A DNA stretch of 64,000 bases from contig NZ_CP118259.1 in the NCBI RefSeq assembly GCF_013337045.2, forward strand, positions 1,550,001 to 1,614,000, given 5' to 3'. Positions 1-64,000 of the stretch are shown here, piece after piece. Every line of letters starts with the position of its first letter. Position 1 is the stretch's first letter. Source of the DNA: Agrobacterium vitis (GTDB taxonomy: Bacteria; Pseudomonadota; Alphaproteobacteria; Rhizobiales; Rhizobiaceae). The notes beneath the pieces were generated by a model. The model worked only from the letters and a program-made list of their open reading frames with translations, was not told where the DNA came from and did no database searches. Both the position numbers and the translations under genes were made by a program.

Positions 1-340
1 AGCCCTGGTAAGAGGTCTCGCCAGAATTAGAGCCAACCCATCCGCCCTTATGCACGAGACTGCCCTCAATCGGGATGATTGCTACATTATCGATCACGGC
101 GAACGGCAGCAAGTTGGCGCGCTGATAGGCGCGCTCCAGTTGGTTTCCGACCTTACCCGCCAGTGGACGGCCATTGCCGAAAGCAACATGATCCGCAGCG
201 CCCGCCGGGTTGGCGATGACGATGGTATCACCAGCGATCCGGCTGCCCATGCCTTGCAAGAAAGCTTCGGCCTTGCGCGGATCGTAGAGCAACGGTGTGT
301 TGAACACCCGCTGCGCGATATGGCCATAGCGAAAACTCAT
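1..340 (-). CDS. S49/SppA-like prohead protease, N-terminal part (copy 1, cut by window edge)
   Basis: The first 113 codons of a head-maturation protease, truncated by the left edge. The start is placed at 340 (ATG, protein beginning MSFRYGHIAQ), matching the start of the full copy at 55141. The family (lambda gpC-like, ClpP/SppA fold) cleaves scaffold and portal during prohead maturation. The catalytic serine and lysine lie beyond the edge and cannot be checked here. It follows the gpW-like gene by 10 bases in the head operon. Confidence 0.85.
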   Translation of the reverse strand, partial: MSFRYGHIAQRVFNTPLLYDPRKAEAFLQGMGSRIAGDTIVIANPAGAADHVAFGNGRPLAGKVGNQLERAYQRANLLPFAVIDNVAIIPIEGSLVHKGGWVGSNSGETSYQG

Positions 341-350
341 GACTTTCCCT

Positions 351-617
351 CTAAAACCGAAGCCGCCAGCGGCGACTAGGCCGCCGTCCGGTGGTCTTTT
401 CCTGGCAAGCGGCAGCAAGCCGGTTCAGTTCAGCGTCGAGCGCTGACAGATTGGCTGATGAAAACACCACCTGGTCGCGGGTTACAGGTGACTGGATCGA
501 CATCTGGCTAACATGCTCGCCCGCCAAAGCCCTCAATTTCACCGAATAAAGCGCCTGAAACAGCGCGCAAGGATCGTCCTGATCGACATCGACACCGTTG
601 ATCTTCACCAGCGCCAT
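351..617 (-). CDS. gpW-like head-tail joining protein (copy 1)
   Basis: An 88-residue protein in the position of lambda gpW, between portal and protease. The stretch with VTRDQVVFSSANLSALDAEL resembles the second half of gpW-family proteins, which insert below the portal to close the packaged head. The ATG at 617 shares one base with the portal stop (TGATG), which favours this start; a GTG at 620 is the alternative. The C-terminus is Arg-rich. The assignment rests on size, context and weak sequence resemblance. Confidence 0.7.
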   Translation of the reverse strand: MALVKINGVDVDQDDPCALFQALYSVKLRALAGEHVSQMSIQSPVTRDQVVFSSANLSALDAELNRLAAACQEKTTGRRPSRRWRLRF

Positions 618-2254
618 CACGCACCCGCCGTCTGTTCCTGGCTCGCGCCAGATTCATTGCTGCCTGCTGGATCGCTCGGCAAGCCACGCTCGAATGGCGA
701 CGGCATGCCAGCATCCTTGTAGCGAGTGTGCCACCAGAAGCGGTTTTCAAACCGCTCTTCGGCATCGCCGCCCAATTCGCTGATTTCCTCGGTCAGATCG
801 CCCGTTCCGTTGGCAATCCGTTCGCTGGCGGCTTTGGCCCGCTTCAAATCGTCGGCTGTTGGCTTGGCCGGGCCGTTGCACAGCGCCCACTGCGCCGCAT
901 CGCGGTTCGCACGGTAAACTTCAAGACCGCCCTTGAAGGGAATACGGCCCTCCTCGATCGCCTCATCCAGCCAACTACCGTACGGCACAAGCACATGCGG
1001 TGCGGCAATCCTCTGGGTCCGACGCTGGGCAATCGGCCAAAGCGCCGAATTCTCCATCATCGTCGAGGCATAGGTGGCATCCGTGTAATCAAGCGTGTAA
1101 CCGCCATAGCTGACCCCGAGCCCACGTGCTGTCTCCCGATGCAATGAAGACATAAAGTCTTTATTGTAGGGGCCTGGAGCCGTGATGTTCTTGAATTCAA
1201 AATCCTCGCCGGGAGCGAGATGCGAAACACCGGCCCCAGAGCCCATCCGGATTTCCGATTCGGCAGCACGATCCATCTGTGCTCGAAAGTAATCGACAAC
1301 GTCCTGCGCCATGTCCTTAGCCCCGTCCAAAGGACTGTCTTTGAGGCTTTCAAGCGCTTCAAACACCTCAGCGCTGGGCTTGTCGCTTTTCAGAACCGCC
1401 GAATAGATGGTCTGCATGAACATGATCTGCGCCGTGGCATCATCCGTGTTCTCGGCCATCAGATATTTCCGGAAGGTCGGGACCAGAGGGGAAATCCCAC
1501 GCACATCTTCCGCCGAAAACGGATCGAAGGCATGCATCACAAGCTGTCGTCCATCCGCATCCGCCGCCGCATAGTCCACCGTATAGGTCAGACCGTCCCG
1601 GCATTCCTTGAAGCGATAAACCTGCGGGCGACCATAGGCATCGTGGTAGATGCCTTGATAGAGACCACTCATTTCGCTGGTATCCTGCACCAGCTTTTGC
1701 GGCGACAGCATAAGCATTTTCGTGCCGGTACGGCAGCCTGGAAGACGCTGCGCACGCGGCAGGTATGAAACCACACCAGTGCTTTCGCCAAAGGCCAACC
1801 AGTTGCGCACGCCGACATCGGTCATCTGGGCAATGGTCAGTTTGGCGCGGAAATCGCATTCACGCGGGTTCCAGCTCCATGTCTTCCATTCGGCCTTGAC
1901 CAGCCGCGTCCACTCGATAGCTTCAAGCGTGTCATAGCCAAACCGTGTTAGATCCGGCTTCGGGTTCAATTGCAGCTCGACACCGATGGTATCGGCCAGG
2001 ATCTGGTCAGCGGCCCCGCGCAACCGGCCGGAATTCTGCAACATGTCCATGGCAAGGCCCGCCGCCCGCCACCAGATGCGCCGAACCTCGTCACGATGCT
2101 CCCGCAAAGACGCCGGACGAGAGGCAATGATACCGGACTGGCTATCGCGCATATAGGCGGACGAAGCGCGCCCGTTGCGGGGCGCACCAGTTGGGCGCAC
2201 TGCGGGCGCGCTCACGCTGCCCGCCTTCACCCTCACCCGTGGCTTTTCCGTCAT
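617..2254 (-). CDS. Phage portal protein, lambda gpB family (copy 1)
   Basis: A 545-residue portal protein forming the ring at the packaging vertex through which DNA enters and leaves the head. It has the length and layout of the lambda family, with the conserved middle LSPQKLVQDTSEMSGLYQGI and an Ala/Ser/Gln-rich tail. The ATG at 2254 overlaps the large terminase stop in ATGA, so it is preferred over the in-frame ATG 15 bases upstream. Compared with the copy at 55418-57055, most changes cluster near residues 90-130; the rest is almost unchanged. Confidence 0.93.
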   Translation of the reverse strand: MTEKPRVRVKAGSVSAPAVRPTGAPRNGRASSAYMRDSQSGIIASRPASLREHRDEVRRIWWRAAGLAMDMLQNSGRLRGAADQILADTIGVELQLNPKPDLTRFGYDTLEAIEWTRLVKAEWKTWSWNPRECDFRAKLTIAQMTDVGVRNWLAFGESTGVVSYLPRAQRLPGCRTGTKMLMLSPQKLVQDTSEMSGLYQGIYHDAYGRPQVYRFKECRDGLTYTVDYAAADADGRQLVMHAFDPFSAEDVRGISPLVPTFRKYLMAENTDDATAQIMFMQTIYSAVLKSDKPSAEVFEALESLKDSPLDGAKDMAQDVVDYFRAQMDRAAESEIRMGSGAGVSHLAPGEDFEFKNITAPGPYNKDFMSSLHRETARGLGVSYGGYTLDYTDATYASTMMENSALWPIAQRRTQRIAAPHVLVPYGSWLDEAIEEGRIPFKGGLEVYRANRDAAQWALCNGPAKPTADDLKRAKAASERIANGTGDLTEEISELGGDAEERFENRFWWHTRYKDAGMPSPFERGLPSDPAGSNESGASQEQTAGA

Positions 2255-4266
2255 TTGCGCTTTTTCCACCTGTTTTCAGTCGGTTTGTCTGCTCTGGCCT
2301 GCGCCGGTACCGACGACGCGGGCGCGGTAACCGGTATTTTCTGCGGCTCCGCTGGCCGATCCTCATGCAAGACCTTGTGGCTGACAGAAGACAGCAGGTC
2401 CGGCACAATCTCCGGCTCCAGCATTGTTCTCAGTCTTGCCCAATCGCTTGCGCTCATCTTCGAAAGGCCAAGGTGTTCCGCCATGGCCATCGCGTAGATT
2501 CTGCAATCGAGAAAGTGGTTATGTTCCCGCCGCTTCTTCCACTCTTCGTGCAGCTTGCCCTTCACCAAAGCCTGATGAAAATATTCCCCGGTGATCTGCT
2601 GGAAATATTCCTCGCCAAGCTCCTTATGGAAATGGCAATAGCCGGATGGGTCCTGCGCCTCTCCAGCCGCAAGACCAATCTTGTGCAAATTGCCGTAAAA
2701 CTCTGCCTTCAATGACCATGTGCCGACCGGCCAGGACATCGCCGAACCGAACCGCTTGCGCTTGCCCCGTTTGGTAACGGTCTTGCGCGACGGCAGGCCG
2801 ATGGCCGGTAGGCCCCGGCCTGGCTGGCCCTTCGTGGCATAGGCATTCGGATGGCGGCGGCACCATTCCATGACCTGGTTGGTACGCCAGCCAGCATCAA
2901 CGGCCAGTGCATCGATCTTCCGAAGCACCCCGAACGCATCCGGAAATTCCTGCGAAACGAATTCCTCAAACAGCAGCCAGGCGCCCGCTTGCGGGTTGTC
3001 CGTCGCGCCTTCAAAGAATTCGGCGAAGACGTTCCAGCTCTGCCGATCCTCTCCGAAGGCAACGCCTTCGCAGTAGATGCCGTAGCCCTGGACGTCTGCA
3101 CCGGCCACAAACAGCAGTCCGCCAGATGGGATGACGCCGGGCTTGTAGTCTTCCCGCCGCTCCATCAGCCGCTTGTGGTCCGGTGCGTTGCCCTTCATCT
3201 GATATGGCTTGGCCAGGATCAGATTATGGTAGTCCTTCGCGCCGGCCTCACCCTTTGCCTCGTAGCTGATCTTGTCCTCGGCAATCGCCTCGTAGGACAT
3301 CATCAACGACATGAAGGCGTCGACATGAAAGCCAGGATGACGATCCGGCCCGGAGAGAGACGGAATATACCGCCCTTCCCGCACCGCAGATACCCGCTCC
3401 ATTTCCGAAATATGATGCCCGCATTTCACGCAACGCATCACAGATTTATGCGGCTGGCCCCGGTTGATCAGAAAGTTCTGATCGTCCTGGACCTGCTCAA
3501 CACCGCATTCCGGGCATTTGATATGCCAGAATCGCTGGTCCGAACGCCGGAACGAACGGTCGATACGGCAATGGCCAGGCCCCTCGCCCAGCGCATCGCC
3601 ACTGTCCAGTTCCGGCGTGGACAGCTCAAAAATCTTATAGGTCTTCTGCCTGCGAAACGCCGTGAAGCGACCAAAGAACAGGTTTTCCGGATCAGCGCCA
3701 TTCGGCAGCATGTTCCATTTGGACACCTCGTCCTTGACGCCGAACCGCGCCGTCTTCGCCGACAGATCCATGACCGTGTTGGCATTGGCCAGATAGATCG
3801 CACCGCCGGCGAATTTCTTCTCATACGTGGTTGATCCAACCCCGGAACGGCTGGTCGAGGGATAGATCGTCTCTTTGCCCGTCCGCTTCTGCCAGGCGTC
3901 GATCAGCGGCTGAAGCTTGCCGGAGTTGATGTCTTGCAGAGCATCGATGCCCGGCACGCCGTACAGCGCGTTATCCGGGCAGGTCTCGGCAATGTACAAC
4001 ATCCAAGCCAGCGCCAGGATCGAGACCCCGGTCTGTTGCGATTTACGACACGAAACCAGATTGCAAGGATGCTCCTGGCTCAGACATTGCGCCATCTCGA
4101 CCAGGTATGGCGCATCCGCCGCTGACCAAAGCTCACCCTTTTTCGGCCCGTCCACCAAAACGACATTCTGGGTCAGCCAACGATCAAAGGGCACGGGCGG
4201 CGTTGGCCTGATAGCTGTCGCCAACGTGGACGCAACACCACGCAGCGCACCAGGATGAACTGTCAC
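2251..4266 (-). CDS. Terminase large subunit, GpA family (copy 1)
   Basis: A 671-residue packaging ATPase and nuclease of the lambda GpA type, which cuts at cos and translocates DNA into the prohead. The Walker-A-like segment CRKSQQTG lies near residues 73-80, where GpA proteins have a modified P-loop. Two CxxC pairs (CPEC and CVKC) form a probable zinc knuckle in the middle, and the C-terminal half carries the nuclease region. The start is a GTG at 4266 that overlaps the small terminase stop (GTGA). The second copy is nearly identical. Confidence 0.95.
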   Translation of the reverse strand: MTVHPGALRGVASTLATAIRPTPPVPFDRWLTQNVVLVDGPKKGELWSAADAPYLVEMAQCLSQEHPCNLVSCRKSQQTGVSILALAWMLYIAETCPDNALYGVPGIDALQDINSGKLQPLIDAWQKRTGKETIYPSTSRSGVGSTTYEKKFAGGAIYLANANTVMDLSAKTARFGVKDEVSKWNMLPNGADPENLFFGRFTAFRRQKTYKIFELSTPELDSGDALGEGPGHCRIDRSFRRSDQRFWHIKCPECGVEQVQDDQNFLINRGQPHKSVMRCVKCGHHISEMERVSAVREGRYIPSLSGPDRHPGFHVDAFMSLMMSYEAIAEDKISYEAKGEAGAKDYHNLILAKPYQMKGNAPDHKRLMERREDYKPGVIPSGGLLFVAGADVQGYGIYCEGVAFGEDRQSWNVFAEFFEGATDNPQAGAWLLFEEFVSQEFPDAFGVLRKIDALAVDAGWRTNQVMEWCRRHPNAYATKGQPGRGLPAIGLPSRKTVTKRGKRKRFGSAMSWPVGTWSLKAEFYGNLHKIGLAAGEAQDPSGYCHFHKELGEEYFQQITGEYFHQALVKGKLHEEWKKRREHNHFLDCRIYAMAMAEHLGLSKMSASDWARLRTMLEPEIVPDLLSSVSHKVLHEDRPAEPQKIPVTAPASSVPAQARADKPTENRWKKRK

Positions 4267-4865
4267 GCTTCCTCTTCCTCGATCAAGGCATCACCGGCCG
4301 GCGCTTCGCTGGCAATCGCCTCCAGCTTGTCCGCCATCTCGTTGCCGATCTCAAAAGCGATTTCCCGCAACAAGACCCGCACACCATGCACGCCCTCTTT
4401 CGAGACGGCCAAAGCGAGATCGTCCGCCAGATTCGGTAACCGCCGGATAATCGCCTGCAATTCGGCCCCGATGCCGCGCACCGCAGCATCCACGCTGTCT
4501 TTGCGCACCAGCTGCCCGCATTCTTCCTGCCGCCGTAGCTTCTCGCGGCCAACAGCCAGCCATTCTTTCTGGCGCCGCGCCTCATCAAAGCTTTCACTTT
4601 GCGGCAAAAGCGGCCCAGCATTACCGGGCCTGTCTTCGGACCCAACGCCCCGAATGGGCGCCGAGGCCTTGGCCGGGTTGATATGCCGCGACCGGTAATG
4701 GTCATAGTGCGCCAAAGACACCCGCATGACCTGCCCCTGCGGACCACGATCAACCGGCGTTTCCGGCTGGGCTTCCAACATCTTCTTGACCGCCTTGGAA
4801 ATCGCAGCCTTCGAAACACTGTCCCGCGCCGCAATTTCGGTGATTGACCACATCACATCCGACAT
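4263..4865 (-). CDS. Terminase small subunit / cos-binding protein (copy 1)
   Basis: A 200-residue protein in the Nu1 position, just upstream of the GpA-type terminase. The N-terminus (ITEIAARDSVSKAAISKAVK) is a helix-turn-helix typical of DNA-recognition subunits. The C-terminal half is helical and acidic and probably contacts the large subunit. A good ribosome site (AGGTGATGG) precedes the ATG at 4865. The gene lies directly beside the CCGT(C/T)AACC repeat array, a plausible binding target. Residues near 85-95 differ from the second copy. Confidence 0.85.
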   Translation of the reverse strand: MSDVMWSITEIAARDSVSKAAISKAVKKMLEAQPETPVDRGPQGQVMRVSLAHYDHYRSRHINPAKASAPIRGVGSEDRPGNAGPLLPQSESFDEARRQKEWLAVGREKLRRQEECGQLVRKDSVDAAVRGIGAELQAIIRRLPNLADDLALAVSKEGVHGVRVLLREIAFEIGNEMADKLEAIASEAPAGDALIEEEEA

Positions 4866-4885
4866 CGATCACCATCACCTTTCAG

Positions 4886-5040
4886 CCGTCAACCCCGTCA
4901 ACCACCCCCGTTAACCCCGTCAACCCCGTTAACCCAACATTCAAACCTCTGAGACTGCCCGAAACCCGGGCACAAATCTGTTCGTGGGCCTGTCGGGCTG
5001 GGGTACGGTCCCTAGACCAAGGGGGGGGTGTGGCAGGGTT
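4886..5040. other. Candidate cos region: 9-bp repeat array plus conserved palindrome (copy 1)
   Basis: The 242-base gap upstream of the small terminase gene holds five tandem copies of about 9 bp of CCGT(C/T)AACC (4886-4934). About 75 bases on is a conserved block with CCCTAGACC and a run of eight G (about 5006-5040). The repeats are unchanged in the second prophage, while the sequence between array and G-run has diverged. In lambda-type phages cos sits just upstream of the small terminase gene, so the repeats could be terminase-binding sites and the G-run part of the cut. The function is inferred. Confidence 0.45.
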
Positions 5041-5107
5041 GCCACGCCCGGCTCTCGGGGTGGAAATCGATGCAAAATGCAACATTTTGTGCCTTTACGT
5101 CATTTTT

Positions 5108-5737
5108 TTATTCAAAGAAACCAGGGATCAGATACCCGATCTCATGCATGACGCGCGTCGGCAGGTTAGTCTCGACGGTCTCGGTGAAGACCTTGGCGCT
5201 TGCACCTGAGACCATCTCGGACGGAATGACCACACCAGAGTTTTGAAGCTCGATAGGGTTGCGACCTTTTCCCGCCCGGCGGAAGACGTGACCGTGAAGG
5301 GAAGGCGCATTCACCCGACCAGGGAAACGCCCGCCCTTCATGAATGTGCCGGCGAACAGCGTGCGCTTACCGAACGGGGCAGCGGTCACGCCAGCCTTGG
5401 TTTCCCGAGCCTTGAAGTATTTCAGGGCGATATCGCCGCCCCGAGATGTGATCGTGTAGTTGAACGAGGCATCGGTAAACGAGACGATCTCGCCAGTTTC
5501 CCGGCTGATACCCGTTCCCGTCGCCTTTCGAACCTTCAACGCCTTCTTGATGACGCCGTATGGCAGTCCGGTCTGCTTTGCCAGTGTGCGACTGACCTGT
5601 GTCAGGGCTTTGTCACCGGTATGATTGACCGCACGCTGCAAGACGATCCGCTTTTGCGGGCCATCCAACTTTTTCATGGCGTTTTCCAACCGGTTCATAC
5701 CGGAGACATCGCCCCAACGGATGGTCAGATCAGCCAT
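5108..5737 (-). CDS. Minor tail protein gpZ-like (copy 1)
   Basis: A 209-residue protein resembling the phage minor tail protein Z family, with a basic N-terminal part (LDGPQKRIVLQRAVNHTG) and a beta-rich C-terminus ending IGYLIPGFFE. Such proteins act at the tail-head interface. The location is unusual: upstream of the terminase genes and separated from the other tail genes by the whole head module. Residues 1-130 match the second copy almost perfectly, whereas the last 80 are clearly diverged. The ATG is at 5737. Confidence 0.7.
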   Translation of the reverse strand: MADLTIRWGDVSGMNRLENAMKKLDGPQKRIVLQRAVNHTGDKALTQVSRTLAKQTGLPYGVIKKALKVRKATGTGISRETGEIVSFTDASFNYTITSRGGDIALKYFKARETKAGVTAAPFGKRTLFAGTFMKGGRFPGRVNAPSLHGHVFRRAGKGRNPIELQNSGVVIPSEMVSGASAKVFTETVETNLPTRVMHEIGYLIPGFFE

Positions 5738-6023
5738 AGCAAAAACTCCAGAGTGATCGAGGCGACCGCTGGGCCGCTTATAGATGTTTGGTTCTCCAAG
5801 CAGCTGCTATCCCAGAACGGCACCAGACATCATCGCCTCTCACTGAAAGCCGCCATTACAGCGGCGGGGTTCATGGTCGCCTCCATCGGCTGGAAATGCG
5901 AAACCCGCCGAGCGTTTCCGCCAGCGGGTTTTTCTTACCTTTTTCAGTGTGTTCAACCTATGTCAAACTTTGGCCGACGTCCATTGACCGCAATTGCGAT
6001 TATTTCGGTGTATTTTCAATGAA
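5738..6023. other. Intergenic stretch upstream of the gpZ-like gene (copy 1)
   Basis: No convincing gene is seen in these 286 bases; the open frames across it are shadows. It contains the GC hairpin described separately near 5901. It is well conserved up to about 5960 in the other prophage and then diverges. A promoter for the late (packaging) genes could lie here, but no clear -35/-10 pair was recognised. Confidence 0.5.
5901..5935 (+). terminator. Hairpin with T-run (copy 1)
   Basis: AACCCGC and GCGGGTT arms around a 15-base loop, followed by TTTTT on the plus strand. It could stop antisense transcription entering the early operon; on the minus strand it lacks a good T-run. The hairpin is conserved at 60701-60735. 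Confidence 0.5.
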
Positions 6024-6803
6024 CTATGCACATTCCTGCATTTTTTCTTCGCTCGCCCAAGGCTCAAGATCCGGCTCGAAGGGCAGAATTTCATGGGCTA
6101 GCAAATCAGTTTGCAGATCGGCGGCGAGGATGGCGAGGGCGGCTTGCCATTGCTGCCATTCCATCCGGTCGAGGATCGCACCCCGGATGGACGATGCAAG
6201 CTGGTATTTGTGGTAGGCGCCACGGTGCGGCTTGCGGGCGCGGCGGTTATAGCCGTCCGTTTCGATGGTATAGGATCGACCAAAGGCATCCTTCGATGTT
6301 CGCTGGCAAAACCAGCGTGGCGTGCCATCCTTGTCGGCAATCATTGTTTCGCGCGGTTTCGATGCCTGCCAATCGGGGCCACGGTTGAGAATGGCGCATG
6401 TGGTGACCAGCGCGGCCACATGACTGCCAGCCAGCCTATCGCCCTTGATCATCACCTCAGCTCTCACGCGCTCAACTTCGGCGGCAACCAGACCATGGTC
6501 ATCCGGCCATTCGGGAAAGAGGTTCCAGCCTTCTGGAATATCCTGGGCAACAGTAGCCAATTGCCGCACCGCGTCCCCTGCCCGCACTGCGTCCGCGTGC
6601 GGCAAGCCATCCTCAATGAAATCGGGGATCACGCCGTACCCGTTCGGGCTGCGGTCAATCATCGTGCCCAAGGCCGCGTATGAGCCGATCATCCCCCAAG
6701 ACGATGGAATTGAGGCCAGACCGACATTTGATCCAGACCCGACTTTGCAGAGTTCTTTCGTGAAAGCCCAATTCAGAAAGGCTTCAATCGTAATTTTTTT
6801 CAT
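6024..6803 (-). CDS. Conserved phage protein of unknown function (copy 1)
   Basis: A 259-residue soluble protein, not recognised. The ATG at 6803 is chosen because a strong ribosome site (GAGGTGAGAG) lies just upstream. It is the first gene after the iteron origin and has its own leader. No enzyme motif is evident; it is rich in Trp and acidic residues and has a conserved RGPDWQA segment. Against the copy at 60826-61605 the first ~77 residues are nearly identical while the rest is only moderately similar, indicating recombination or selection on the C-terminal part. Confidence 0.8.
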   Translation of the reverse strand: MKKITIEAFLNWAFTKELCKVGSGSNVGLASIPSSWGMIGSYAALGTMIDRSPNGYGVIPDFIEDGLPHADAVRAGDAVRQLATVAQDIPEGWNLFPEWPDDHGLVAAEVERVRAEVMIKGDRLAGSHVAALVTTCAILNRGPDWQASKPRETMIADKDGTPRWFCQRTSKDAFGRSYTIETDGYNRRARKPHRGAYHKYQLASSIRGAILDRMEWQQWQAALAILAADLQTDLLAHEILPFEPDLEPWASEEKMQECA

Positions 6804-6828
6804 TCTCTCACCTCTTATTTGCAAAGTT

Positions 6829-7215
6829 TGGACAGCAAGGACAGATAACTGGTAAAAAACGGACAGATAAAATCGACAAATGGACAGATAAAATCTAATA
6901 AAAACAATAGATGGACAGCTAGGACAGATAAGTTGCGACCTTTAATGATGCGCGCAATACAAACCGCATCATCAATTTCTCATGACACGCATCATCCATG
7001 GCAATCCGGTTCTGAAAAAATGCGCGCGAGCGCGCATCACGAAAGGACGGTAATTACCTGTCCTAGCTGTCCATCGTTCATAACATTTTGAAAACGTTGC
7101 GCTCTTCCTGTCCGAAGAAAAAAACCTATCTGTCCGTAAGAATGGTTTATCTGTCCTAGCTGTCCACCCCGGACCCTCGGAAGGGTGCAAAAGGCAGGTA
7201 GACGCCGCGCTGTCC
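6829..7215. repeat. Candidate replication origin: two opposed iteron arrays (copy 1)
   Basis: Thirteen copies of GGACAG occur in about 390 bases: six on the plus strand (starting 6830, 6839, 6861, 6882, 6913, 6922, mostly as GGACAGATAA) and seven as CTGTCC (7058, 7067, 7108, 7130, 7151, 7160, 7210). They point towards a 126-base core holding several GATGCG/CGCATC motifs and the palindrome ATGCGCGC-GA-GCGCGCAT (7020-7037). The array abuts a P4-type primase-helicase gene; P4 alpha protein binds iterons containing GAACAG at its origin. By eye the region has only about five changes in the second prophage and none in the hexamers. Confidence 0.6.
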
Positions 7216-7252
7216 ACCTTGTACCACCGAAGGGTCCGGGCGCGCAACGGCA

Positions 7253-49571: not shown

Positions 49572-49574
49572 GAT

Positions 49575-49970: not shown

Positions 49971-50509
49971 TCGGCAAAAACCTTTTCCGATGCCTCGACA
50001 ATAGGCCACAGACCGGCAGACGAACCGCTGGATACGCGCACCCGGTCACCCAGCCGCGCCACCCGCTTGCCATCTGTCCCGGCCAGATTGACCCGCTCTC
50101 CATGCAATTCGGTCACCCCACCATTGTCGGAAAACCCGATCAGGCCGGAACCGAACGACGACAGGATGCGGGCATCAAGCGCCGAAGACGGCGCGCCATT
50201 GGCATCCGAAAACGTCAATGGTACCGCCACGCCCTGCCGCATATCGCCAAATGGCGACAGCAATATCATTTGCTGACCCTTGGATGGTGGCCGCCAGCTC
50301 TTTTCAGCGCCAGCCACTTCCGACCATGGCCGCCATGGCGTCAGGAATTCATTGCCAGCATCGCCCGCCAGTTTCATCCGCAGACGGCGAGTATCGCCAT
50401 CAACAGCGTGAACCGTGCCGACCCGCTGCATGCCCTGCACTGCCCGGCGCAGGCCCGCAACCTCGGCCTTCAGCTCAAGGATGATGTTGACAAGCACCTG
50501 GTCGCTCAT
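49967..50509 (-). CDS. V: Baseplate spike protein gpV
   Basis: A 180-residue spike protein with an OB-like N-terminal part (RVGTVHAVDGDTRRLRMKL) and a beta-rich tip. It forms the membrane-piercing tip below gpD. The start overlaps the upstream stop (ATGA). Confidence 0.88.
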   Translation of the reverse strand: MSDQVLVNIILELKAEVAGLRRAVQGMQRVGTVHAVDGDTRRLRMKLAGDAGNEFLTPWRPWSEVAGAEKSWRPPSKGQQMILLSPFGDMRQGVAVPLTFSDANGAPSSALDARILSSFGSGLIGFSDNGGVTELHGERVNLAGTDGKRVARLGDRVRVSSGSSAGLWPIVEASEKVFAE

Positions 50510-55141: not shown

Positions 55142-55151
55142 GACTTTCCCT

Positions 55152-55418
55152 CTAAAACCGAAGCCGCCAGCGGCGACTAGGCCGCCGTCCGGTGGTCTTT
55201 TCCTGGCAGGCGGCGGCAAGCCGGTTCAATTCGGCGTTGAGCGCCGACAGATCGGCCGATGAAAACACCACCTGGTCGCGGGTGACAGGTGACTGAATCG
55301 ACATCTGGCTGACATGCTCGCCCGCCAAAGCCCTCAATTTCACCGAATAAAGCGCCTGAAACAGCGCGCAAGGATCGTCCTGGTCGACATCGACACCGTT
55401 GATCTTCACCAGCGCCAT
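55152..55418 (-). CDS. gpW-like head-tail joining protein (copy 2)
   Basis: 88 residues, nearly identical to the copy at 351-617 (changes such as ANLSALDAEL to ADLSALNAEL). The start shares a base with the portal stop. Roles as in copy 1. Confidence 0.7.
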   Translation of the reverse strand: MALVKINGVDVDQDDPCALFQALYSVKLRALAGEHVSQMSIQSPVTRDQVVFSSADLSALNAELNRLAAACQEKTTGRRPSRRWRLRF

Positions 55419-57055
55419 CACGCACCCGCCGTCTGTTCTTGGCTTGCGCCAGATTCATTGCTACCGGCTGGATCGCTCGGCAAGCCGCGCTCGAAAGGTG
55501 AAGCCATCCCCGCTTCCTTGTAGCGATTATGCCACCGGAGACGGCTTTCAAACCGCTCCTCGGCATCGCCGCCCAATTCGCTGATTTCCTCAGTCAGGTC
55601 ACCCGTTCCGTTCGCGATCCGCTCGCTGGAAGCCTTGGCCCGCTTCAAATCGTCGGCGGTCGGCTTGGCCGGACCGTTGCACAGCGCCCATTGCACCGCA
55701 TCGCGGTTGGCGCGGTAGACTTCGAGACCACCCTTGAAGGGAATACGGCCCTCCTCGATCATTTCATCGAGCCAGCTACCATAAGGCACGAGCACATGCG
55801 GCGCGGCAATTCGCTGGGTCCGACGCTGGGCAATCGGCCAAAGCGCCGAATTCTCCATCATCGTCGAGGCATAGGTGGCAGCCGTGTAGTCAAGCGTGTA
55901 CCCGCCATAGCTGACACCAAGCGCCCGGGCCGTTTCCCGGTGCAACGACGCCATAAAATCCTTGTAATAGGAGCCAGGCGCCGTGATGTTCTTGAATTCA
56001 AGATCCTCGCCGGGAGCGAGATGCGAAACACCGGCCCCAGAGCCCATCCGGATTTCCGATTCGGCAGCACGATCCATCTGTGCTCGAAAGTAATCGACAA
56101 CGTCCTGCGCCATGTCCTTAGCCCCGTCCAAAGGGCTGTCTTTCAGGCTTTCAAGCGCCTCAAACACCTCAGCGCTGGGCTTGTCACTTTTCAGGACTGC
56201 CGAATAGATGGTCTGCATGAACATGATCTGCGCCGTGGCATCATCCGTGTTCTCGGCCATCAGATATTTCCGGAAGGTCGGGACCAGCGGGGAAATCCCA
56301 CGCACATCTTCCGCCGAAAACGGATCGAAGGCATGCATGACAAGCTGTCGTCCATCCGCATCCGCCGCCGCATAGTCCACCGTATAGGTCAGACCGTCCC
56401 GGCATTCCTTGAAGCGATAGACCTGTGGGCGGCCATAGGCATCGTGGTAGATGCCTTGATAGAGACCCATCATCTCGCTGGTATCCTGAACCAGCTTTTG
56501 CGGGGACAGCATCAGCATTTTCGTGCCGGTACGGCAGCCCGGAAGACGCTGCGCACGCGGCAGATACGAAACCACGCCGGTGCTTTCGCCGAAGGCCAGC
56601 CAGTTTCGCATGCCGACATCTGTCTGCTGCGGAATGGTCAGCTTGGCGCGGAAATCGCACTCACGCGGGTTCCAGCTCCAAGGCTTCCATTCCCCCTTCA
56701 CCATTCGTGTCCAGGCTATAGATTCCATCTGATCGTAGCCGAGACGGCTCAAATCCGGCATCGGGTTCAGTTGCAGCTCCACACCAATGGTATCGGCCAG
56801 GATCTGGTCAGCAGCTCCGCGCAACCGGCCGGAATTCTGCAACATATCCATGGCAAGGCCCGCCGCCCGCCACCAGATGCGCCGAACCTCGTCACGATGC
56901 TCCCGCAAAGACGCCGGGCGAGAGGCAATGATACCAGACTGGCTATCACGCATATATGCGGACGAAGCGCGCCCGTTGCGGGGCACACCAGTTGGGCGCA
57001 CTGCGGGCGCGCTCACGCTACCCGCCTTCACCCTCACCCGTGGCTTTTCCGTCAT
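55418..57055 (-). CDS. Phage portal protein, lambda gpB family (copy 2)
   Basis: 545 residues. It differs from copy 1 mainly around residues 90-130 and in the C-terminal ~120 residues. The ATGA start at 57055 is conserved. Confidence 0.93.
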   Translation of the reverse strand: MTEKPRVRVKAGSVSAPAVRPTGVPRNGRASSAYMRDSQSGIIASRPASLREHRDEVRRIWWRAAGLAMDMLQNSGRLRGAADQILADTIGVELQLNPMPDLSRLGYDQMESIAWTRMVKGEWKPWSWNPRECDFRAKLTIPQQTDVGMRNWLAFGESTGVVSYLPRAQRLPGCRTGTKMLMLSPQKLVQDTSEMMGLYQGIYHDAYGRPQVYRFKECRDGLTYTVDYAAADADGRQLVMHAFDPFSAEDVRGISPLVPTFRKYLMAENTDDATAQIMFMQTIYSAVLKSDKPSAEVFEALESLKDSPLDGAKDMAQDVVDYFRAQMDRAAESEIRMGSGAGVSHLAPGEDLEFKNITAPGSYYKDFMASLHRETARALGVSYGGYTLDYTAATYASTMMENSALWPIAQRRTQRIAAPHVLVPYGSWLDEMIEEGRIPFKGGLEVYRANRDAVQWALCNGPAKPTADDLKRAKASSERIANGTGDLTEEISELGGDAEERFESRLRWHNRYKEAGMASPFERGLPSDPAGSNESGASQEQTAGA

Positions 57056-59067
57056 TTGCGCTTTTTCCACCTGTTTTCAGTCGGTTTGTCTGCTTTGGTC
57101 TGCGCCGGTACCGACGACGCGGGCGCGGTAACCGGTATTTTCTGCGGCTCCGCTGGCCGATCCTCATGCAAGACCTTGTGGCTGACAGAAGACAGCAGAT
57201 CCGGCACAATCTCCGGCTCCAGCATTGTTCTCAGTCTTGCCCAATCGCTTGCGCTCATCTTCGAAAGGCCAAGGTGTTCCGCCATGGCCATCGCGTAGAT
57301 TCTGCAATCGAGAAAGTGGTTATGTTCCCGCCGCTTCTTCCACTCTTCGTGCAGCTTGCCCTTCACCAAAGCCTGATGAAAATATTCCCCGGTGATCTGC
57401 TGGAAATATTCCTCGCCAAGCTCCTTATGGAAATGGCAATAGCCGGATGGGTCCTGCGCCTCTCCAGCCGCAAGACCAATCTTGTGCAAATTGCCGTAAA
57501 ACTCTGCCTTCAATGACCATGTGCCGACCGGCCAGGACATCGCCGAACCGAACCGCTTGCGCTTGCCCCGTTTGGTAACGGTCTTGCGCGACGGCAGGCC
57601 GATGGCCGGTAGGCCCCGGCCTGGCTGGCCCTTCGTGGCATAGGCATTCGGATGGCGGCGGCACCATTCCATGACCTGGTTGGTACGCCAGCCAGCATCA
57701 ACGGCCAGTGCATCGATCTTCCGCAGCACCCCGAACGCATCCGGAAATTCCTGCGAAACGAATTCCTCAAACAGCAGCCAGGCGCCCGCTTGCGGGTTGT
57801 CCGTCGCGCCTTCAAAGAATTCGGCGAAGACGTTCCAGCTCTGCCGATCCTCTCCGAAGGCAACGCCTTCGCAGTAGATGCCGTAGCCCTGGACGTCTGC
57901 ACCGGCCACAAACAGCAGTCCGCCAGATGGGATGACGCCGGGCTTGTAGTCTTCCCGCCGCTCCATCAGCCGCTTGTGGTCCGGTGCATTGCCCTTCATC
58001 TGATATGGCTTGGCCAAGATCAGATTATGGTAGTCCTTCGCGCCGGCCTCACCCTTTGCCTCGTAGCTGATCTTGTCCTCGGCAATCGCCTCGTAGGACA
58101 TCATCAACGACATGAAGGCGTCGACATGGAAGCCAGGATGACGATCCGGACCGGATAGAGACGGAATATACCGCCCTTCCCGCACCGCAGATACCCGCTC
58201 CATTTCCGAAATATGATGGCCGCATTTTACGCAACGCATCACAGATTTATGCGGCTGGCCCCGGTTGATCAGAAAGTTCTGATCGTCCTGGACCTGCTCA
58301 ACACAGCATTCCGGGCATTTGATATGCCAGAACCGCTGATCCGAACGCCGGAATGAACGGTCGATACGGCAATGGCCCGGCCCCTCGCCAAGCGCATCGC
58401 CGCTGTCCAGCTCCGGCGTGGACAGCTCAAAAATCTTATAGGTCTTCTGACGGCGGAACGCTGTAAAGCGACCGAAGAACAGGTTTTCCGGATCAGCGCC
58501 ATTCGGCAGCATGTTCCACTTGGACACCTCGTCCTTGACGCCAAACCGCGCCGTCTTCGCCGACAGATCCATGACCGTATTGGCATTGGCCAGATAGATC
58601 GCACCACCGGCGAATTTCTTCTCATACGTGGTCGATCCAACCCCGGAACGGCTGGTCGACGGATAGATCGTTTCCTTGCCCGTCCGCTTCTGCCAGGCGT
58701 CGATCAGCGGCTGAAGCTTGCCGGAGTTGATGTCTTGCAGAGCATCAATGCCCGGTACGCCATACAGCGCGTTATCCGGGCAGGTCTCCGCAATGTACAT
58801 CATCCAGGACAACGCCAGAATGGACACGCCAGTCTGCTGCGATTTTCGGCAAGACACCAGATTGCAAGGATGCTCCTGGCTCAGACATTGCGCCATCTCG
58901 ACCAGGTATGGCGCATCCGCCGCTGACCAAAGCTCGCCCTTTTTCGGCCCATCCACCAACACGACATTCTGGGTCAACCAGCGATCAAAGGGCACCGGCG
59001 GTGTCGGCCTGATGGCTGTCGCCAACGTGGACGCAACACCGCGCAGCGCACCAGGATGAACTGTCAC
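57052..59067 (-). CDS. Terminase large subunit, GpA family (copy 2)
   Basis: 671 residues, almost identical to copy 1. Notable changes: CPECG to CPECC in the zinc knuckle, and AWMLYIAE to SWMMYIAE after the P-loop. GTG start as in copy 1. Confidence 0.95.
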   Translation of the reverse strand: MTVHPGALRGVASTLATAIRPTPPVPFDRWLTQNVVLVDGPKKGELWSAADAPYLVEMAQCLSQEHPCNLVSCRKSQQTGVSILALSWMMYIAETCPDNALYGVPGIDALQDINSGKLQPLIDAWQKRTGKETIYPSTSRSGVGSTTYEKKFAGGAIYLANANTVMDLSAKTARFGVKDEVSKWNMLPNGADPENLFFGRFTAFRRQKTYKIFELSTPELDSGDALGEGPGHCRIDRSFRRSDQRFWHIKCPECCVEQVQDDQNFLINRGQPHKSVMRCVKCGHHISEMERVSAVREGRYIPSLSGPDRHPGFHVDAFMSLMMSYEAIAEDKISYEAKGEAGAKDYHNLILAKPYQMKGNAPDHKRLMERREDYKPGVIPSGGLLFVAGADVQGYGIYCEGVAFGEDRQSWNVFAEFFEGATDNPQAGAWLLFEEFVSQEFPDAFGVLRKIDALAVDAGWRTNQVMEWCRRHPNAYATKGQPGRGLPAIGLPSRKTVTKRGKRKRFGSAMSWPVGTWSLKAEFYGNLHKIGLAAGEAQDPSGYCHFHKELGEEYFQQITGEYFHQALVKGKLHEEWKKRREHNHFLDCRIYAMAMAEHLGLSKMSASDWARLRTMLEPEIVPDLLSSVSHKVLHEDRPAEPQKIPVTAPASSVPAQTKADKPTENRWKKRK

Positions 59068-59666
59068 GCTTCCTCTTCCTCGATCAAGGCATCACCGGTC
59101 GGCGCTTCGCTGGCAATCGCTTCCAGCTTGTCCGCCATCTCGTTGCCGATCTCAAAAGCGATTTCCCGCAACAAGACCCGCACACCATGCACGCCCTCTT
59201 TCGAGACGGCCAATGCGAGATCGTCCGCCCGATTCGGTAACCGCCGGATAATCGCCTGCAATTCGGCCCCGATGCCGCGCACCGCAGCATCCACGCTGTC
59301 TTTGCGCACCAGCTGCCCGCATTCTTCCTGCCGCCGTAGCTTCTCACGGCCTACAGCCAGCCATTCTTTCTGGCGCCGCGCCTCATCAAAGCTTTCGCTC
59401 TGCGGCAATAGCGACCCAGTGCCGCCCGGTTTATCTTCGGAACCAACGCCCCGAATGGGCGCCGAGGCCTTGGCCGGGTTGATATGCCGCGACCGGTAAT
59501 GGTCATAGTGCGCCAAAGACACCCGCATGACCTGCCCCTGCGGACCACGATCAACCGGCGTTTCCGGCTGGGCTTCCAACATCTTCTTGACCGCCTTGGA
59601 AATCGCCGCCTTCGAAACACTGTCCCGCGCCGCAATTTCGGTGATTGACCACATCACATCCGACAT
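59064..59666 (-). CDS. Terminase small subunit (copy 2)
   Basis: 200 residues; the helix-turn-helix is unchanged relative to copy 1, while a short patch near residues 75-90 (KPGGTGSLLPQ versus RPGNAGPLLPQ) differs. The unchanged DNA-binding part fits the unchanged repeat array beside it. Confidence 0.85.
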   Translation of the reverse strand: MSDVMWSITEIAARDSVSKAAISKAVKKMLEAQPETPVDRGPQGQVMRVSLAHYDHYRSRHINPAKASAPIRGVGSEDKPGGTGSLLPQSESFDEARRQKEWLAVGREKLRRQEECGQLVRKDSVDAAVRGIGAELQAIIRRLPNRADDLALAVSKEGVHGVRVLLREIAFEIGNEMADKLEAIASEAPTGDALIEEEEA

Positions 59667-59686
59667 CGATCACCATCACCTTTCAG

Positions 59687-59845
59687 CCGTCAACCCCGTC
59701 AACCACCCCCGTTAACCCCGTCAACCCCGTTAACCCAACATTCAAACCTCTGAGACTGCCCGAGACTCGGGAGTATGTCCCCTCGTGGGCGGGTCGGACT
59801 TGGGTACGGTCCCTAGACTAGGGGGGGTGTGGCAGGGTTGCAACA
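59687..59845. other. Candidate cos region (copy 2)
   Basis: Same 9-bp repeat array (59687-59735) as copy 1, then a diverged stretch, then CCCTAG-A-CTAGGG (59811-59823), here a perfect palindrome, running into a seven-G tract. The palindrome is imperfect in copy 1. Confidence 0.45.
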
Positions 59846-59907
59846 CTCGGTTTTCGGGGTCAAAATTGATGCAAAAATGCAACATTTTCACCATCAAACC
59901 ATTGTTT

Positions 59908-60537
59908 TTATTCAAAGAAACCAGGTATCAGATATCCGATCTCATGCATGACGCGCTTCGGCAGGCTGGTCTCGACGGTCTCGGTGAAGACCTTGGCGCT
60001 TGCGCCTGAGACCATCTCGGCTGGAATGACCACACCAGATTCCTCAATCTCGATAGGGTTGCGACGTTTTCCCGCCCGGCGGACGACGTGACCGTGAAGG
60101 GAATCCGTCTTCACCCGATTAGGGAAACGCCCACCCTTCATGAATGTGCCGGCGTAGAGCTGGAGCTTGCCGAACGGGGCAGCGGTCACGCCAGCCTTGG
60201 TTTCCCGGGCCTTGAAGTATTTCAGGGCGATATCGCCGCCCCGAGATGTGATCGTGTAGTTGAACGAGGCATCGGTAAACGAGACGATCTCGCCAGTGTC
60301 CCGGCTGATACCCGTTCCTGTCGCCTTTCGAACCTTCAACGCCTTCTTGATGACGCCGTATGGCAAACCTGTCTGCTTTGCCAGTGTGCGACTAACCTGT
60401 GTCAGGGCCTTGTCACCGGTGTGATTTACCGCCCGCTGCAAGACGATCCGCTTTTGCGGGCCATCCAACTTTTTCATGGCGTTTTCCAACCGGTTCATAC
60501 CGGAGACATCGCCCCAACGGATGGTCAGATCAGCCAT
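59908..60537 (-). CDS. Minor tail protein gpZ-like (copy 2)
   Basis: 209 residues. Residues 1-130 match copy 1; the C-terminal ~80 differ at many sites (for example NPIELQNSGV to NPIEIEESGV), while the last 35 converge again. Confidence 0.7.
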   Translation of the reverse strand: MADLTIRWGDVSGMNRLENAMKKLDGPQKRIVLQRAVNHTGDKALTQVSRTLAKQTGLPYGVIKKALKVRKATGTGISRDTGEIVSFTDASFNYTITSRGGDIALKYFKARETKAGVTAAPFGKLQLYAGTFMKGGRFPNRVKTDSLHGHVVRRAGKRRNPIEIEESGVVIPAEMVSGASAKVFTETVETSLPKRVMHEIGYLIPGFFE

Positions 60538-60825
60538 AGCAAAAACTCCAGAGTGATCGAGGCGACCGCTGGGCCGCTTATAGATGTTTGGTTCTCCAAG
60601 CAGCTGCTATCCCAGGACAGCACCGAACATCATCGCCTCTCACTGAAAGCCGCCATTACAGCAGCGGGGCTCATGGTCGCCTCCATCGGCTGGAAATGCG
60701 AAACCCGCCGAGCGTTTCCGCCAGCGGGTTTTTCTTACCTTTTTCAGTGTGCTTAACCTATGTCAAACAATGGTTCAGTGTCAAACGACCGCAATTGCAA
60801 TTATTTCCCTTTATTTTCAACAAAA
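60538..60825. other. Intergenic stretch upstream of gpZ-like gene (copy 2)
   Basis: No gene seen. It contains the conserved hairpin at 60701-60735 and a diverged segment from about 60750 onward. Confidence 0.5.
60701..60735 (+). terminator. Hairpin with T-run (copy 2)
   Basis: AACCCGC and GCGGGTT arms with TTTTT on the plus strand, identical to the copy near 5901. Confidence 0.5.
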
Positions 60826-61605
60826 CTACGCGGATTTCAGGCTTTCTTGCGGGTGTGACCATGGCTCAAGATCTGGCACGAAAGGCAGAATATCGTGGGC
60901 CTGCAAATCACCTTCCAGATCAGCATAGAGCGTGGAAAGTGCGGCTTGCCAAATTTGCCATTCAAGCCGGTCGAGGATCGCACCGCGAATGGAACTCGTC
61001 AGATGATATTTGCGGTAGGCGCCTTTGACAGGGCGTCTTGTCCGCCGGTTATAGCCGTCTGTCTCGATACTATAAGTCCTGCCAAAGGCGTCTTTTGCTT
61101 TTGCCAGGGCAAACCATCTCGTTTGGCCAGTCGGGCTTGTCACCATGGCTTCGAGAGGTCTGTCCGCCTGCCAGTCCGGTCCACGGCCAAGAATGGCGCA
61201 TGTCGTCACCAGCGAAACCATATGGCTGCCGGCGAGCCTATCGCCTTTGATCAGCACTTCTTCCCGTATTTTCGCCACTTCCGCCGCCACAAGGCCACGC
61301 TCATCGGGCCATTCAGGAAACAAACACCACTCTTGTGGAATATCGAAGCCGAAGCTCGACAGGCCCAGCACAGCTTCCCCTGCCCGCACTGCATCGGCGT
61401 GCGGGAAGCCATCCTCAATGAAATCCGGGATCACACCGTACCCGTTTGGGCTGCGGTCAATCATCGTACCCAAGGCCGCGTATGAGCCGATCATCCCCCA
61501 AGACGATGGAATTAAGGCCAGACCGACATTTGATCCAGACCCGACTTTGCAGAGTTCTTTCGTGAAAGCCCAATTCAGAAAGGCTTCAATCGTAATTTTT
61601 TTCAT
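60826..61605 (-). CDS. Conserved phage protein of unknown function (copy 2)
   Basis: 259 residues; start ATG at 61605 after GAGGTGAGAG. The N-terminal ~77 residues equal copy 1 apart from two or three changes; from there on similarity drops to roughly 60 percent by eye, with no frame disruption. Both versions keep an intact frame, so both are probably functional. Confidence 0.8.
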   Translation of the reverse strand: MKKITIEAFLNWAFTKELCKVGSGSNVGLALIPSSWGMIGSYAALGTMIDRSPNGYGVIPDFIEDGFPHADAVRAGEAVLGLSSFGFDIPQEWCLFPEWPDERGLVAAEVAKIREEVLIKGDRLAGSHMVSLVTTCAILGRGPDWQADRPLEAMVTSPTGQTRWFALAKAKDAFGRTYSIETDGYNRRTRRPVKGAYRKYHLTSSIRGAILDRLEWQIWQAALSTLYADLEGDLQAHDILPFVPDLEPWSHPQESLKSA

Positions 61606-61630
61606 TCTCTCACCTCTTATTTTCAAAGTT

Positions 61631-62017
61631 TGGACAGCAAGGACAGATAACTGGTAAAAAACGGACAGATAAAATCGACAAATGGACAGATAAAATCTAA
61701 TAAAAACAATAGATGGACAGCTAGGACAGATAAGTTGCGACCTTTAATGATGCGCGCAATACAAACCGCATCATCAATTTCTCATGACACGCATCATCCA
61801 TGGCAATCCGGTTCTGAAAAAATGCGCGCGAGCGCGCATCACGAAAGGACGGGAATTACCTGTCCTAGCTGTCCATCGTTCATAACATTTTGAAAACGTT
61901 GCGCTCTTCCTGTCCGAAGGAAAAAACCTATCTGTCCGTAAGACCGGTTTATCTGTCCTAGCTGTCCACCCCGGACCCTCGGAAGGGTGCAAAAGGCAGG
62001 TAGACGCCGCGCTGTCC
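61631..62017. repeat. Candidate replication origin: two opposed iteron arrays (copy 2)
   Basis: The same 13 GGACAG/CTGTCC hexamers, core and palindrome as in copy 1 at an offset of 54802. Only about five bases differ over ~430, none of them in a hexamer, although the flanking genes carry many changes. Confidence 0.6.
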
Positions 62018-62054
62018 ACCTTGTACCACCGAAGGGTCCGGGCGCGCAACGGCA

Positions 62055-64000
62055 TCAGAAGCCCTCCGGCATGGGTTCATAGTCTGGATATTGGCCGCCA
62101 GGCGCTTCCGGCCTGAATTCATCCCTCACGCGAATGCCGTAGTAGACCGTGCCATTCGACCGTCCACGGCGGAACTGATGCATGCCGCCGTCCGGCCCTT
62201 TCCAACTCTTGCGAGTTTGATCCGGCAACCGCCGTGTGAAGGTGGGCTGATGAAATTCAGACAGGCCCTCGCGTTTCGCATAGCGTTGATAGGCATTGTA
62301 TAGGTCGAGCGGTGTTTCCTGATCGGCGTCGGCGCCGGTAATATGGCAGGCATGGCGCAAGAACGCGCCGATAGGGTCGCTTTCCTCACGATACTCGCGT
62401 GTCGCGTCCTTAATGCCCTCTGGCTCTTGAAGCCCTGTCTCCAGATAGGCAATCGCCCCCGACACCATCCAGGCGAATATGCCGTTGCGTTCCTCGCGCA
62501 GCTTGCGCGGCAGGTCGCGGTCTACATCTTCTTCAGGGATCTGGATTTCCCACGGGACCAGCTTCACACGCCGCCATATGCCGTCAGAATCGTCCTTGAT
62601 GATCGGCTTATGGTTGCCGGACAGGATGATTTTGAATTGCGGGATCAGTTCGAAGAAGTCCTGGTTGAGCTTTCGCACCGGAAGCGGTTCGCCGCCGGTC
62701 AGGGATTTGATCAGCGCATCCTTGAGCTGCACGCCCATTTCCGGCTCCGAGGCCGCCACCAGGCGCACGCCGGGCAGACGGGCCAGATCGGGCGTGGCCT
62801 CGGCGCCAGAGCGGCGCTTTTCGCCAGCGAAACTATCGATCGACATGGACGCTGCATAATCAGCCAGAATATCCACCATCAGATCCACGAAGGTCGATTT
62901 ACCGTTGCGACCCGCGCCATAGAAAAACAGCAAGCACTGCTCACCCGTCATACCCAGTAGGCAATAGCCGAGATAGCGTTGCAGAAAGTTGCGGTATTCG
63001 ACATTCGGCATGACCTGTTTCAGGAAGTTGCGAAATGTCGGGCAATCCTCGTCCGGCGTGAAATCCACCTCTGCCATCTTGGAGATCAGGTCTTCCGGCC
63101 GATGTTTGTCCATCCGGATTTTCCAGCGCCGCACGCCTTCCACCACCCGGCAATAGAACCGCAGCGTCCCGCTCTGACAATTGATGGCGTAGAGATCGGT
63201 ATTCAGATCCTTCACATCCAGCGAGCAGTAAGGCACCGCCTCTTTCAGCATGTTGTCGATCTTGGATGTCCCGGCCGCGCTCTTGGCATGACTGTGGCGA
63301 GACGACATGCGGCCACGCCGCCCCTCCTCCACCTCGTCCATGGCGTCGACCATCTTTTCCAGTTCGGCATATTCGGCATATTGCTCTGGCGTCCAGGAGG
63401 ATGTGGCATCCACCATCTTGCGCCGCGCCCGCTCGGCCTGCTGACCGGTCTTGATCCTGTCCTTGATCTTCTGATGCAGCACATGGGCTTCCTCCGGCCA
63501 GTCGGCCTTCGGATTGCCCATCTTCACCTTTTCCCGTTCGGCTTCCTTCATATCGGCGATCAGACCGTTCAATTCCGTCAGGCGATCATCGTCGACGGCT
63601 TCTCGTACGGTCGGCGGGCGGCCCATGTCCTGCAACTTTTTCGCCGCATCGCGACCAGCCTCGATAGCTGCCTGTTCCTTGGTCGAGCAATCCAGCAGGA
63701 TCGCCTCATCATCGATCAGCTCGGCGGTGCGATGGGCAAAACGGCGCACCACGGCGCCGGATGCGTCTTCCATCCAGCGTTGACCGTCGAACCCATGCCA
63801 CCCGACATGCGTCACATGGCGCAAATACCGCCCATAACGGGTCAGCAGCCGGTTGGCATTGCCGATGTCGGTTTCCGGCAGGGCCGCGCATTCTTCGAGG
63901 ATTTCCGGCCCGGACAATTCAAGGACATCTTCGTCCGGTTCCGGCTCATCAATAGGCAGAGGGTCCGGGCGACCAGCATAGGCCCGGCGCTGCGCCTCGG
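62055..64000 (-). CDS. P4-type DNA primase-helicase (copy 2, N-terminus cut by window edge)
   Basis: The last 647 residues of the primase-helicase; the start would lie at about 64058, outside the window. Walker A and the SF3 core are unchanged from copy 1. Differences lie mostly at third positions and in the charged insert. Confidence 0.93.
   Translation of the reverse strand, partial: EAQRRAYAGRPDPLPIDEPEPDEDVLELSGPEILEECAALPETDIGNANRLLTRYGRYLRHVTHVGWHGFDGQRWMEDASGAVVRRFAHRTAELIDDEAILLDCSTKEQAAIEAGRDAAKKLQDMGRPPTVREAVDDDRLTELNGLIADMKEAEREKVKMGNPKADWPEEAHVLHQKIKDRIKTGQQAERARRKMVDATSSWTPEQYAEYAELEKMVDAMDEVEEGRRGRMSSRHSHAKSAAGTSKIDNMLKEAVPYCSLDVKDLNTDLYAINCQSGTLRFYCRVVEGVRRWKIRMDKHRPEDLISKMAEVDFTPDEDCPTFRNFLKQVMPNVEYRNFLQRYLGYCLLGMTGEQCLLFFYGAGRNGKSTFVDLMVDILADYAASMSIDSFAGEKRRSGAEATPDLARLPGVRLVAASEPEMGVQLKDALIKSLTGGEPLPVRKLNQDFFELIPQFKIILSGNHKPIIKDDSDGIWRRVKLVPWEIQIPEEDVDRDLPRKLREERNGIFAWMVSGAIAYLETGLQEPEGIKDATREYREESDPIGAFLRHACHITGADADQETPLDLYNAYQRYAKREGLSEFHQPTFTRRLPDQTRKSWKGPDGGMHQFRRGRSNGTVYYGIRVRDEFRPEAPGGQYPDYEPMPEGF

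Follow-up and report, generated by a model that had tools for sequence, protein, structure and literature searches.

Two distinct tandem prophages at a tRNA-Arg gene of Agrobacterium vitis, with predicted heteroimmunity and tracts of exchanged DNA

The window analysed here is a 64,000-nucleotide stretch of the Agrobacterium vitis chromosome (assembly GCF_013337045.2, contig NZ_CP118259.1; C1:1550001-1614000). It contains the right part of one prophage (A) and the left part of a second (B), which lie in tandem beside a tRNA-Arg gene. These are almost certainly two distinct prophages, each placed by site-specific integration at that one gene. Our best explanation of the whole, to which we give a probability of about 0.78, comprises the tandem itself, entry of A before B, heteroimmunity, independent excision and exchange of DNA between the two. 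Positions are window coordinates, negative when upstream of the window, and become chromosome positions on addition of 1,550,000. Gene calls are heuristic (63 genes in A, 67 in B), and all per-gene homologue counts are at E <= 1e-5.

The two units and their attachment sites

The earlier note on this window claimed that the genes of 1-9250 recur at 54802-64000 in order and orientation, with a 54.8-kb period, scattered substitutions and segment-wise divergence, and read this as tandem prophages of related but distinct phages. All of this is borne out. On BLAST comparison of the window with itself, 3-9194 matches 54804-63996 at 93.0% identity over 9216 columns in the same orientation. When the comparison is extended to 159 kb of chromosome (the window and both sides), a patchy match links -21067 to 28111 with 31837 to 82796 at an offset of about 54.8 kb. 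A and B are 95.4% identical across 41,230 aligned positions, and 57 of the 63 called A genes have a B counterpart. The divergence is segment-wise: some stretches (up to 4,055 bp) are exactly identical, others differ by roughly 5%, and a number of modules are non-homologous.

An 18-bp attachment (att) core is present in three copies, at -24352 (the left end of A), 29419 and 84079 (the right end of B). The middle core (29419-29436) has the right arm of A to its left and the left arm of B to its right, and is common to both units, each of which has a core at either end. ARAGORN places a tRNA-Arg(tct) gene, i.e. tRNA-Arg(UCU), on the minus strand at 84081-84157 (L005 81-157), and since the last core starts at 84079 the core corresponds to the 3′ end of the tRNA gene plus two bases. 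The boundaries of the units follow from the positions of the cores and the tRNA gene. Prophage A extends from -24352 to 29418 (C1:1525648-1579418), with its right part at 1-29418 of the window, and is supported by the cores, the tRNA gene, matches to PHROG families and a provirus with A alone, described below. Prophage B extends from 29419 to 84078 (C1:1579419-1634078), with its left part at 29419-64000, and is supported by the flanked self-match, the cores and the tRNA gene. Core to core the lengths differ, being 53,771 bp for A and 54,660 bp for B.

An assembly artefact, in which one prophage with two alleles or the prophages of two strains had been laid in tandem, is scarcely credible. The genome of 6.08 Mb is assembled in 5 contigs (completeness 100, contamination 0.92), the units diverge segment by segment and carry different modules, and each is bounded by att cores with its own arms. 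The 43.2-47.5 kb region is present in two copies in the genome. The earlier note argued that an assembly duplication would be identical; divergence is indeed present, though A and B also contain stretches of identity reaching 4 kb, which we read as recent recombination and not as an effect of assembly.

In both units the integrase gene adjoins the att site. That of A (IntA; 28311-29384, plus strand) encodes a 357-amino acid (aa) tyrosine recombinase (PHROG 1, Pfam PF00589) and ends 35 bp ahead of the core. That of B (IntB; 82985-84019) encodes 344 aa, is 43% identical to IntA and ends 60 bp ahead of the core. The right arm of A contains proposed arm-type sites (29341-29372, plus strand), comprising CCCCTCACCCT at 29341 and CCCCTCACCTT at 29362. 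Within the 159 kb there are two exact copies of CCCCTCACCTT, only in the arms of A, one lying 57 bp before the middle core and the other at -24235, which is 117 bp into A counted from the start of the left core. The corresponding B motif, GGTCGCACCT, also has two exact copies, both in the right arm of B (84019 and 84041). We propose from their position that these motifs are the integrase arm sites. With one mismatch allowed the A motif is found near the end of the integrase gene in 6 of 10 IntA relatives. For IntB there are 13 relatives; of the 11 inspected (L105-L115) 9 carry the B motif, and at 7 of all 13 loci a tRNA-Arg(tct) gene was called by ARAGORN at the core. Two observations weigh against the proposal. 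The A motif is missing, at one mismatch, near the end of the integrase gene in the other 4 IntA relatives, and GGTCGCACCT does not occur within 300 bp of the left end of B even at one mismatch. Integrases with one core specificity and different arm sites could, it is suggested, use a common site.

A 62-kb viral contig (L112) carries an IntB relative (71%), and there the right arm, the core and a B-like left arm are joined in a junction that resembles the phage attachment site (attP) of a free phage.

Gene modules and immunity regions

Matches to PHROG families, searched with 40 proteins (28 of B and 12 of A), include terminase, portal, head protease, major capsid, sheath, tape measure, baseplate and tail fibre proteins, together with endolysin, a weak spanin match, primases, methyltransferases, repressors and integrases. 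From this gene set A and B appear to be complete, contractile-tailed temperate phages of one mosaic family. The large terminase subunit of B (671 aa) lies at 57052-59067 on the minus strand, and the A copy is at 2251-4266. Among the 63 genomes of the genus surveyed, terminase matches at E <= 1e-80 are found in eight, and twice in the source genome alone, where the gene has two copies.

The two phages differ in discrete modules. The tail fibre of B (30931-32694, minus strand, 587 aa) and that of A (-22750 to -20210, 846 aa) have the N-terminal part in common and different tips, with 69% identity over 526 columns. Among the tail genes B carries a module of three genes (37153-38325, minus strand) that is absent from the corresponding place in A. 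One of these (37346-38086) is anti-repressor-like by PHROG and Pfam family match (Bro-N, 9.8e-24), with a 73% relative in the prophage of genome G063. The B protein, recognised from its family match, might act on the repressor of A.

The repressor genes, both encoding S24 peptidase domains, lie at 17513-18220 in A (plus strand, the start being set by alignment with the B repressor) and at 72363-73076 in B. The immunity region of B, placed by the earlier note outside the window, is thus located at 72.0-73.6 kb. The proteins are 50% identical over 236 residues, very unevenly distributed. In the alignment 17 of the first 70 residues are identical, as are 14 of 39 in 71-110 and 85 of 125 in 111-235. 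Beside the A repressor gene, and divergent from it, a small gene (17164-17424, minus strand, 86 aa) is in the position of cro, from which its role is suggested. Pfam gives no match for its product, and the B counterpart (72024-72305) is 55% identical. Operator-like palindromes of the form CGGAA-N4-TTCCG occur three times between the cro-position and repressor genes of A (17438-17509, at 17439, 17462 and 17496) and twice ahead of the other early operon (19128-19173, at 19129 and 19158). At the corresponding places B has instead GCGGAC-N4-GTCCGC, at 72288 and 72345 and at 73537 and 73567.

Because the DNA-binding halves of the repressors diverge far more than the S24 halves, and because the palindrome sets differ, different immunity is favoured; we predict that A and B are heteroimmune. 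The earlier note left a choice between different immunity and a first prophage that failed to exclude the second, and this comparison favours the former as a sequence-based prediction. Several observations weigh against this prediction. With one mismatch the A-type pattern occurs 10 times in A and 4 times in B (6.1 expected for both), and with two mismatches the B-type pattern occurs twice in A and 6 times in B (9.0 expected). Single perfect A-type sites are also found in G086 away from an immunity region, and there is one apiece in G011 and G019; Pfam detects no helix-turn-helix match in the A repressor, where the PHROG repressor match covers that part. As the counts over whole prophages are not above chance, the support comes from the placement of the palindromes, from the perfect A-type sites, of which there are four in 108 kb, every one within the immunity region of A, and from conservation in G086. 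The prophage of G086, which is another species, has the same palindrome layout as A and a repressor 98% identical to that of A.

Comparison with G086 also bears on the origin of the tandem. The A repressor is 97.9% identical to that of G086 and the B repressor 49%, whereas the tape measure protein of B is 97.4% identical to that of G086 and that of A 79.7%. As the two genes match in opposite ways, A and B have different relatives. A tandem duplication of one prophage, with later divergence of the copies, would fit the common gene order, the overall identity and the exact runs. It would be expected to leave integrases, ends and immunity common to the two units, and they are not, for integrases, immunity, fibre tips and ends are non-homologous or strongly diverged. 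Together with the opposite affinities for G086, these modules of different ancestry refute a duplication, which we regard as highly improbable.

Other genes also deserve mention. Between the fibre gene and the left end of B there is a 294-aa open frame (30041-30925, minus strand) that was overlooked by the gene caller, matching PHROG 4752 (tRNA methyltransferase, 2.2e-9) and PADLOC mad2 (4.1e-14); its slot in A holds a different gene of 163 aa (-23630 to -23139). Downstream of the window B has a phosphoadenosine-phosphosulfate-reductase-like gene (66046-66879; PHROG 424, 1.3e-46) and a fused helicase-methyltransferase of 869 aa (68090-70696), in place of which A has other methyltransferase genes. 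Frames of 238 and 137 aa in A (26752-27874, plus strand) match separate parts of one 394-aa gene of B (81384-82568), relative to which the A gene may be split. A 1069-aa protein of unknown function (44362-47571, minus strand; PHROG 877, 3.3e-220) is encoded between the sheath and baseplate genes. In A a 316-aa open frame with a hydrophobic end (18217-19167, minus strand) is convergent with the repressor gene and starts at the left operator set; it has no Pfam or PADLOC match and is possibly expressed in the lysogen. Nothing firm emerged as a defence or exclusion gene bearing on co-residence, PADLOC on 10 proteins giving methyltransferases and weak single matches.

Order of entry at the tRNA gene

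A is also found alone. In the IMG/VR provirus 2899834825_000003 the right arm of A is followed by the core, the tRNA-Arg gene and host flank, and the 428 bp from the core onwards are identical to the genome studied here. The left part is 99.945% identical to A over 18,283 bp, of which 412 bp are host flank, and the repressor and integrase are 100% identical. The differences from A comprise a 236-bp patch on the left, a region between 9480 and 15716 in which one module, at about 10.3-12.9 kb, is replaced, and position 20903. From this junction it follows that A exists alone, and that B was either inserted exactly at the tRNA side of A or lost exactly from the other isolate.

Empty sites, in which the left flank crosses the core straight into the tRNA gene over about 1.5 kb, are found in two related species, G015 (91.5%) and G012 (91.7%), that is in 2 of the 30 loci examined (the window's own included); the remaining loci gave no long match to the left flank. 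A 16-base core pattern is present in 30 of the 63 genomes, once in 25 and twice in four (G064, G019, G068 and G011), and three copies occur in the source genome only. Single elements of the same family, with other integrases, occupy the same tRNA gene in G011 and G019, while the relative in G086 is integrated at tRNA-Lys.

Two sister species carry what appears to be a scar of an A-type prophage. In G063 (92.3%) and G064 (91.3%) the left flank ends about 70 bp before the core. What follows is the terminal ~200 bp of an IntA-like gene with the arm motifs that belong to it, and then the core; the junction is identical in both genomes. The simplest reading is one ancestral deletion of an A-type prophage. 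Beyond the core G063 has a phage of the A/B family with an unrelated integrase (24% identical to IntA and to IntB). In G064 the element at this place has an integrase 98.5% identical to IntB, and its early genes and left arm resemble those of B; no A/B-family terminase was found in it at E <= 1e-80. Since the two genomes carry different phages after one common scar, the place between an A-type end and the tRNA gene was occupied in independent events in at least these two cases, and probably also in the present one. This suggests that stacking at the tRNA-Arg locus has happened more than once.

The left arm of A contains a tRNA-like 27-base relic (-23834 to -23808), 518 bp inside the left core. 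The sequence past it matches the G086 prophage at 85%, in the left arm directly at the tRNA-Lys core copy of that prophage. The relic has the appearance of a fossil att core that survived an exchange of the integrase/att module.

The order of events can be read as follows. A would have entered first, rebuilding the tRNA gene. Its tRNA-side att site would have stayed usable as a bacterial attachment site (attB), where B entered by means of its own integrase. The integrases would use the common core and probably bind different arm sites. As the repressor and operators of B differ, the A repressor should not shut B off, and B could thus lysogenise an A-lysogen. Separate excision of A and of B would be expected, because each prophage retains both its own arms.

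The same two phages could have arrived by another history, with B first and A then entering the left att site of B, or with a hybrid formed when an incoming phage underwent homologous recombination with the resident. The att sequences by themselves are compatible with either order, and this tells against our preferred order; the long tracts common to A and B would also allow homologous recombination. But an isolate with A alone exists and B alone at the site was not found in the collections scanned, the left slot of G063 and G064 held an A-type prophage, and each integrase adjoins arm motifs of its own type, whereas after a homologous crossover one would expect mixed ends. We consider such a history unlikely, though it merits some weight.

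DNA exchange, known parallels and significance

Three long exact runs link A and B. The longest (4,055 bp) is at 32942-36996 in B and -19962 to -15908 in A, the second (1,856 bp) at 41720-43575 and -13111 to -11256, and the third (1,392 bp) at 48665-50056 and -6166 to -4775. In seven control pairs (A or B against G086, G063 and G011, plus G086 against G063) none of the exact runs is longer than 320 bp, and as the A/B runs far exceed this we conclude that A and B recently exchanged DNA. The runs are not specially conserved sequence, since within them the divergence of A at aligned positions is 3-7% from G086 and 8-9% from G063. Exchange would have occurred by homologous recombination, within the double lysogen or shortly before.

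Comparison with the single-A isolate adds a possible instance. Over the left 18 kb A differs from it at 10 sites only, all between -13038 and -12803 inside the second run, and B is the same as A at all 10. This fits conversion of A by B after its arrival, with import into the single-A isolate as the alternative. The outgroups leave the direction undecided, as G086, G063 and G011 match A and B at some of the 10 sites and the single-A isolate at others. Chance location of the patch inside an exact run is not unlikely, because two of the runs (5,911 bp) cover about one-third of the 18-kb stretch.

Tandem heteroimmune prophages are a known kind, given the parallels in Mycobacterium abscessus, Shiga-toxin Escherichia coli and Salmonella; added here are a natural series at one site, scars and exchange tracts. 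The M. abscessus T36 prophages prophiT36-2a and prophiT36-2b are reported as two different tandem prophages, the second proposed to have entered at the right attachment site (attR) of the first (PMC9934374). As here, that account describes different prophages with similar stretches at one attB, repressors that are not closely related and related strains without the tandem, and its authors favour action of the second integrase at the attR of the first. Unlike here, it describes integration-dependent immunity, with attP in the repressor gene, and detection of both excised attP forms; the repressors of A and B are of the lambda-like S24 type, encoded away from the att sites, and excision of the two phages is a prediction. 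Tandem prophages in Shiga-toxin E. coli are described as usually attributed to phages sharing one attB (PMC8112680), and tandem integration at one common attB is what we observe. The new mechanism presented in that report, with an attB inside a prophage, differs, as B lies at the core between A and the tRNA gene and not within A. Salmonella Gifsy anti-repressors are reported to act on the repressors of heteroimmune co-resident prophages (PMC3121763). Here too there are co-resident, predicted heteroimmune prophages and an anti-repressor-like gene, while unlike the Gifsy proteins the Bro-N-type protein of B is recognised by family only.

The closest annotated records by terminase are the Rhizobium phages RR1-A (NC_021560) and vB_RleM_PPF1 (NC_025427), at 75-76% and with the same overall plan. 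Homologues of 19 of the 63 A genes and 21 of the 67 B genes are present in RR1-A, the repressor and the B anti-repressor among them, and by this measure the phage is related but of a different group. The counts for PPF1 are 8 of 63 and 9 of 67, and neither IntA nor IntB finds a counterpart in either phage at E <= 1e-5. DNA searches of the annotated phage collection gave short tail-gene matches only. A published description of this tandem was not found in the literature on tandem or heteroimmune prophages, accretion, gene conversion between prophages, PPF1 and Allorhizobium vitis prophages, though one may exist.

The tandem might be a lasting evolutionary device and no mere passing event, with the tRNA-Arg locus working as a ratchet. 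In this view the left slot is kept by an A-type phage or the scar of one, the tRNA-side slot is taken by one phage after another, and co-residence promotes gene conversion. We put this forward tentatively and would not favour it at present. If it is true, heteroimmune neighbours would undergo concerted evolution in all but their immunity and att modules. The locus offers a natural series of states of a single attB (empty, with A alone, with A and B and, in two species, with an A scar and other phages). This series would allow separate measurement of superinfection of a lysogen, of independent excision from a common core and of recombination between neighbours. Recombination between resident prophages is suggested as one source of phage mosaicism.

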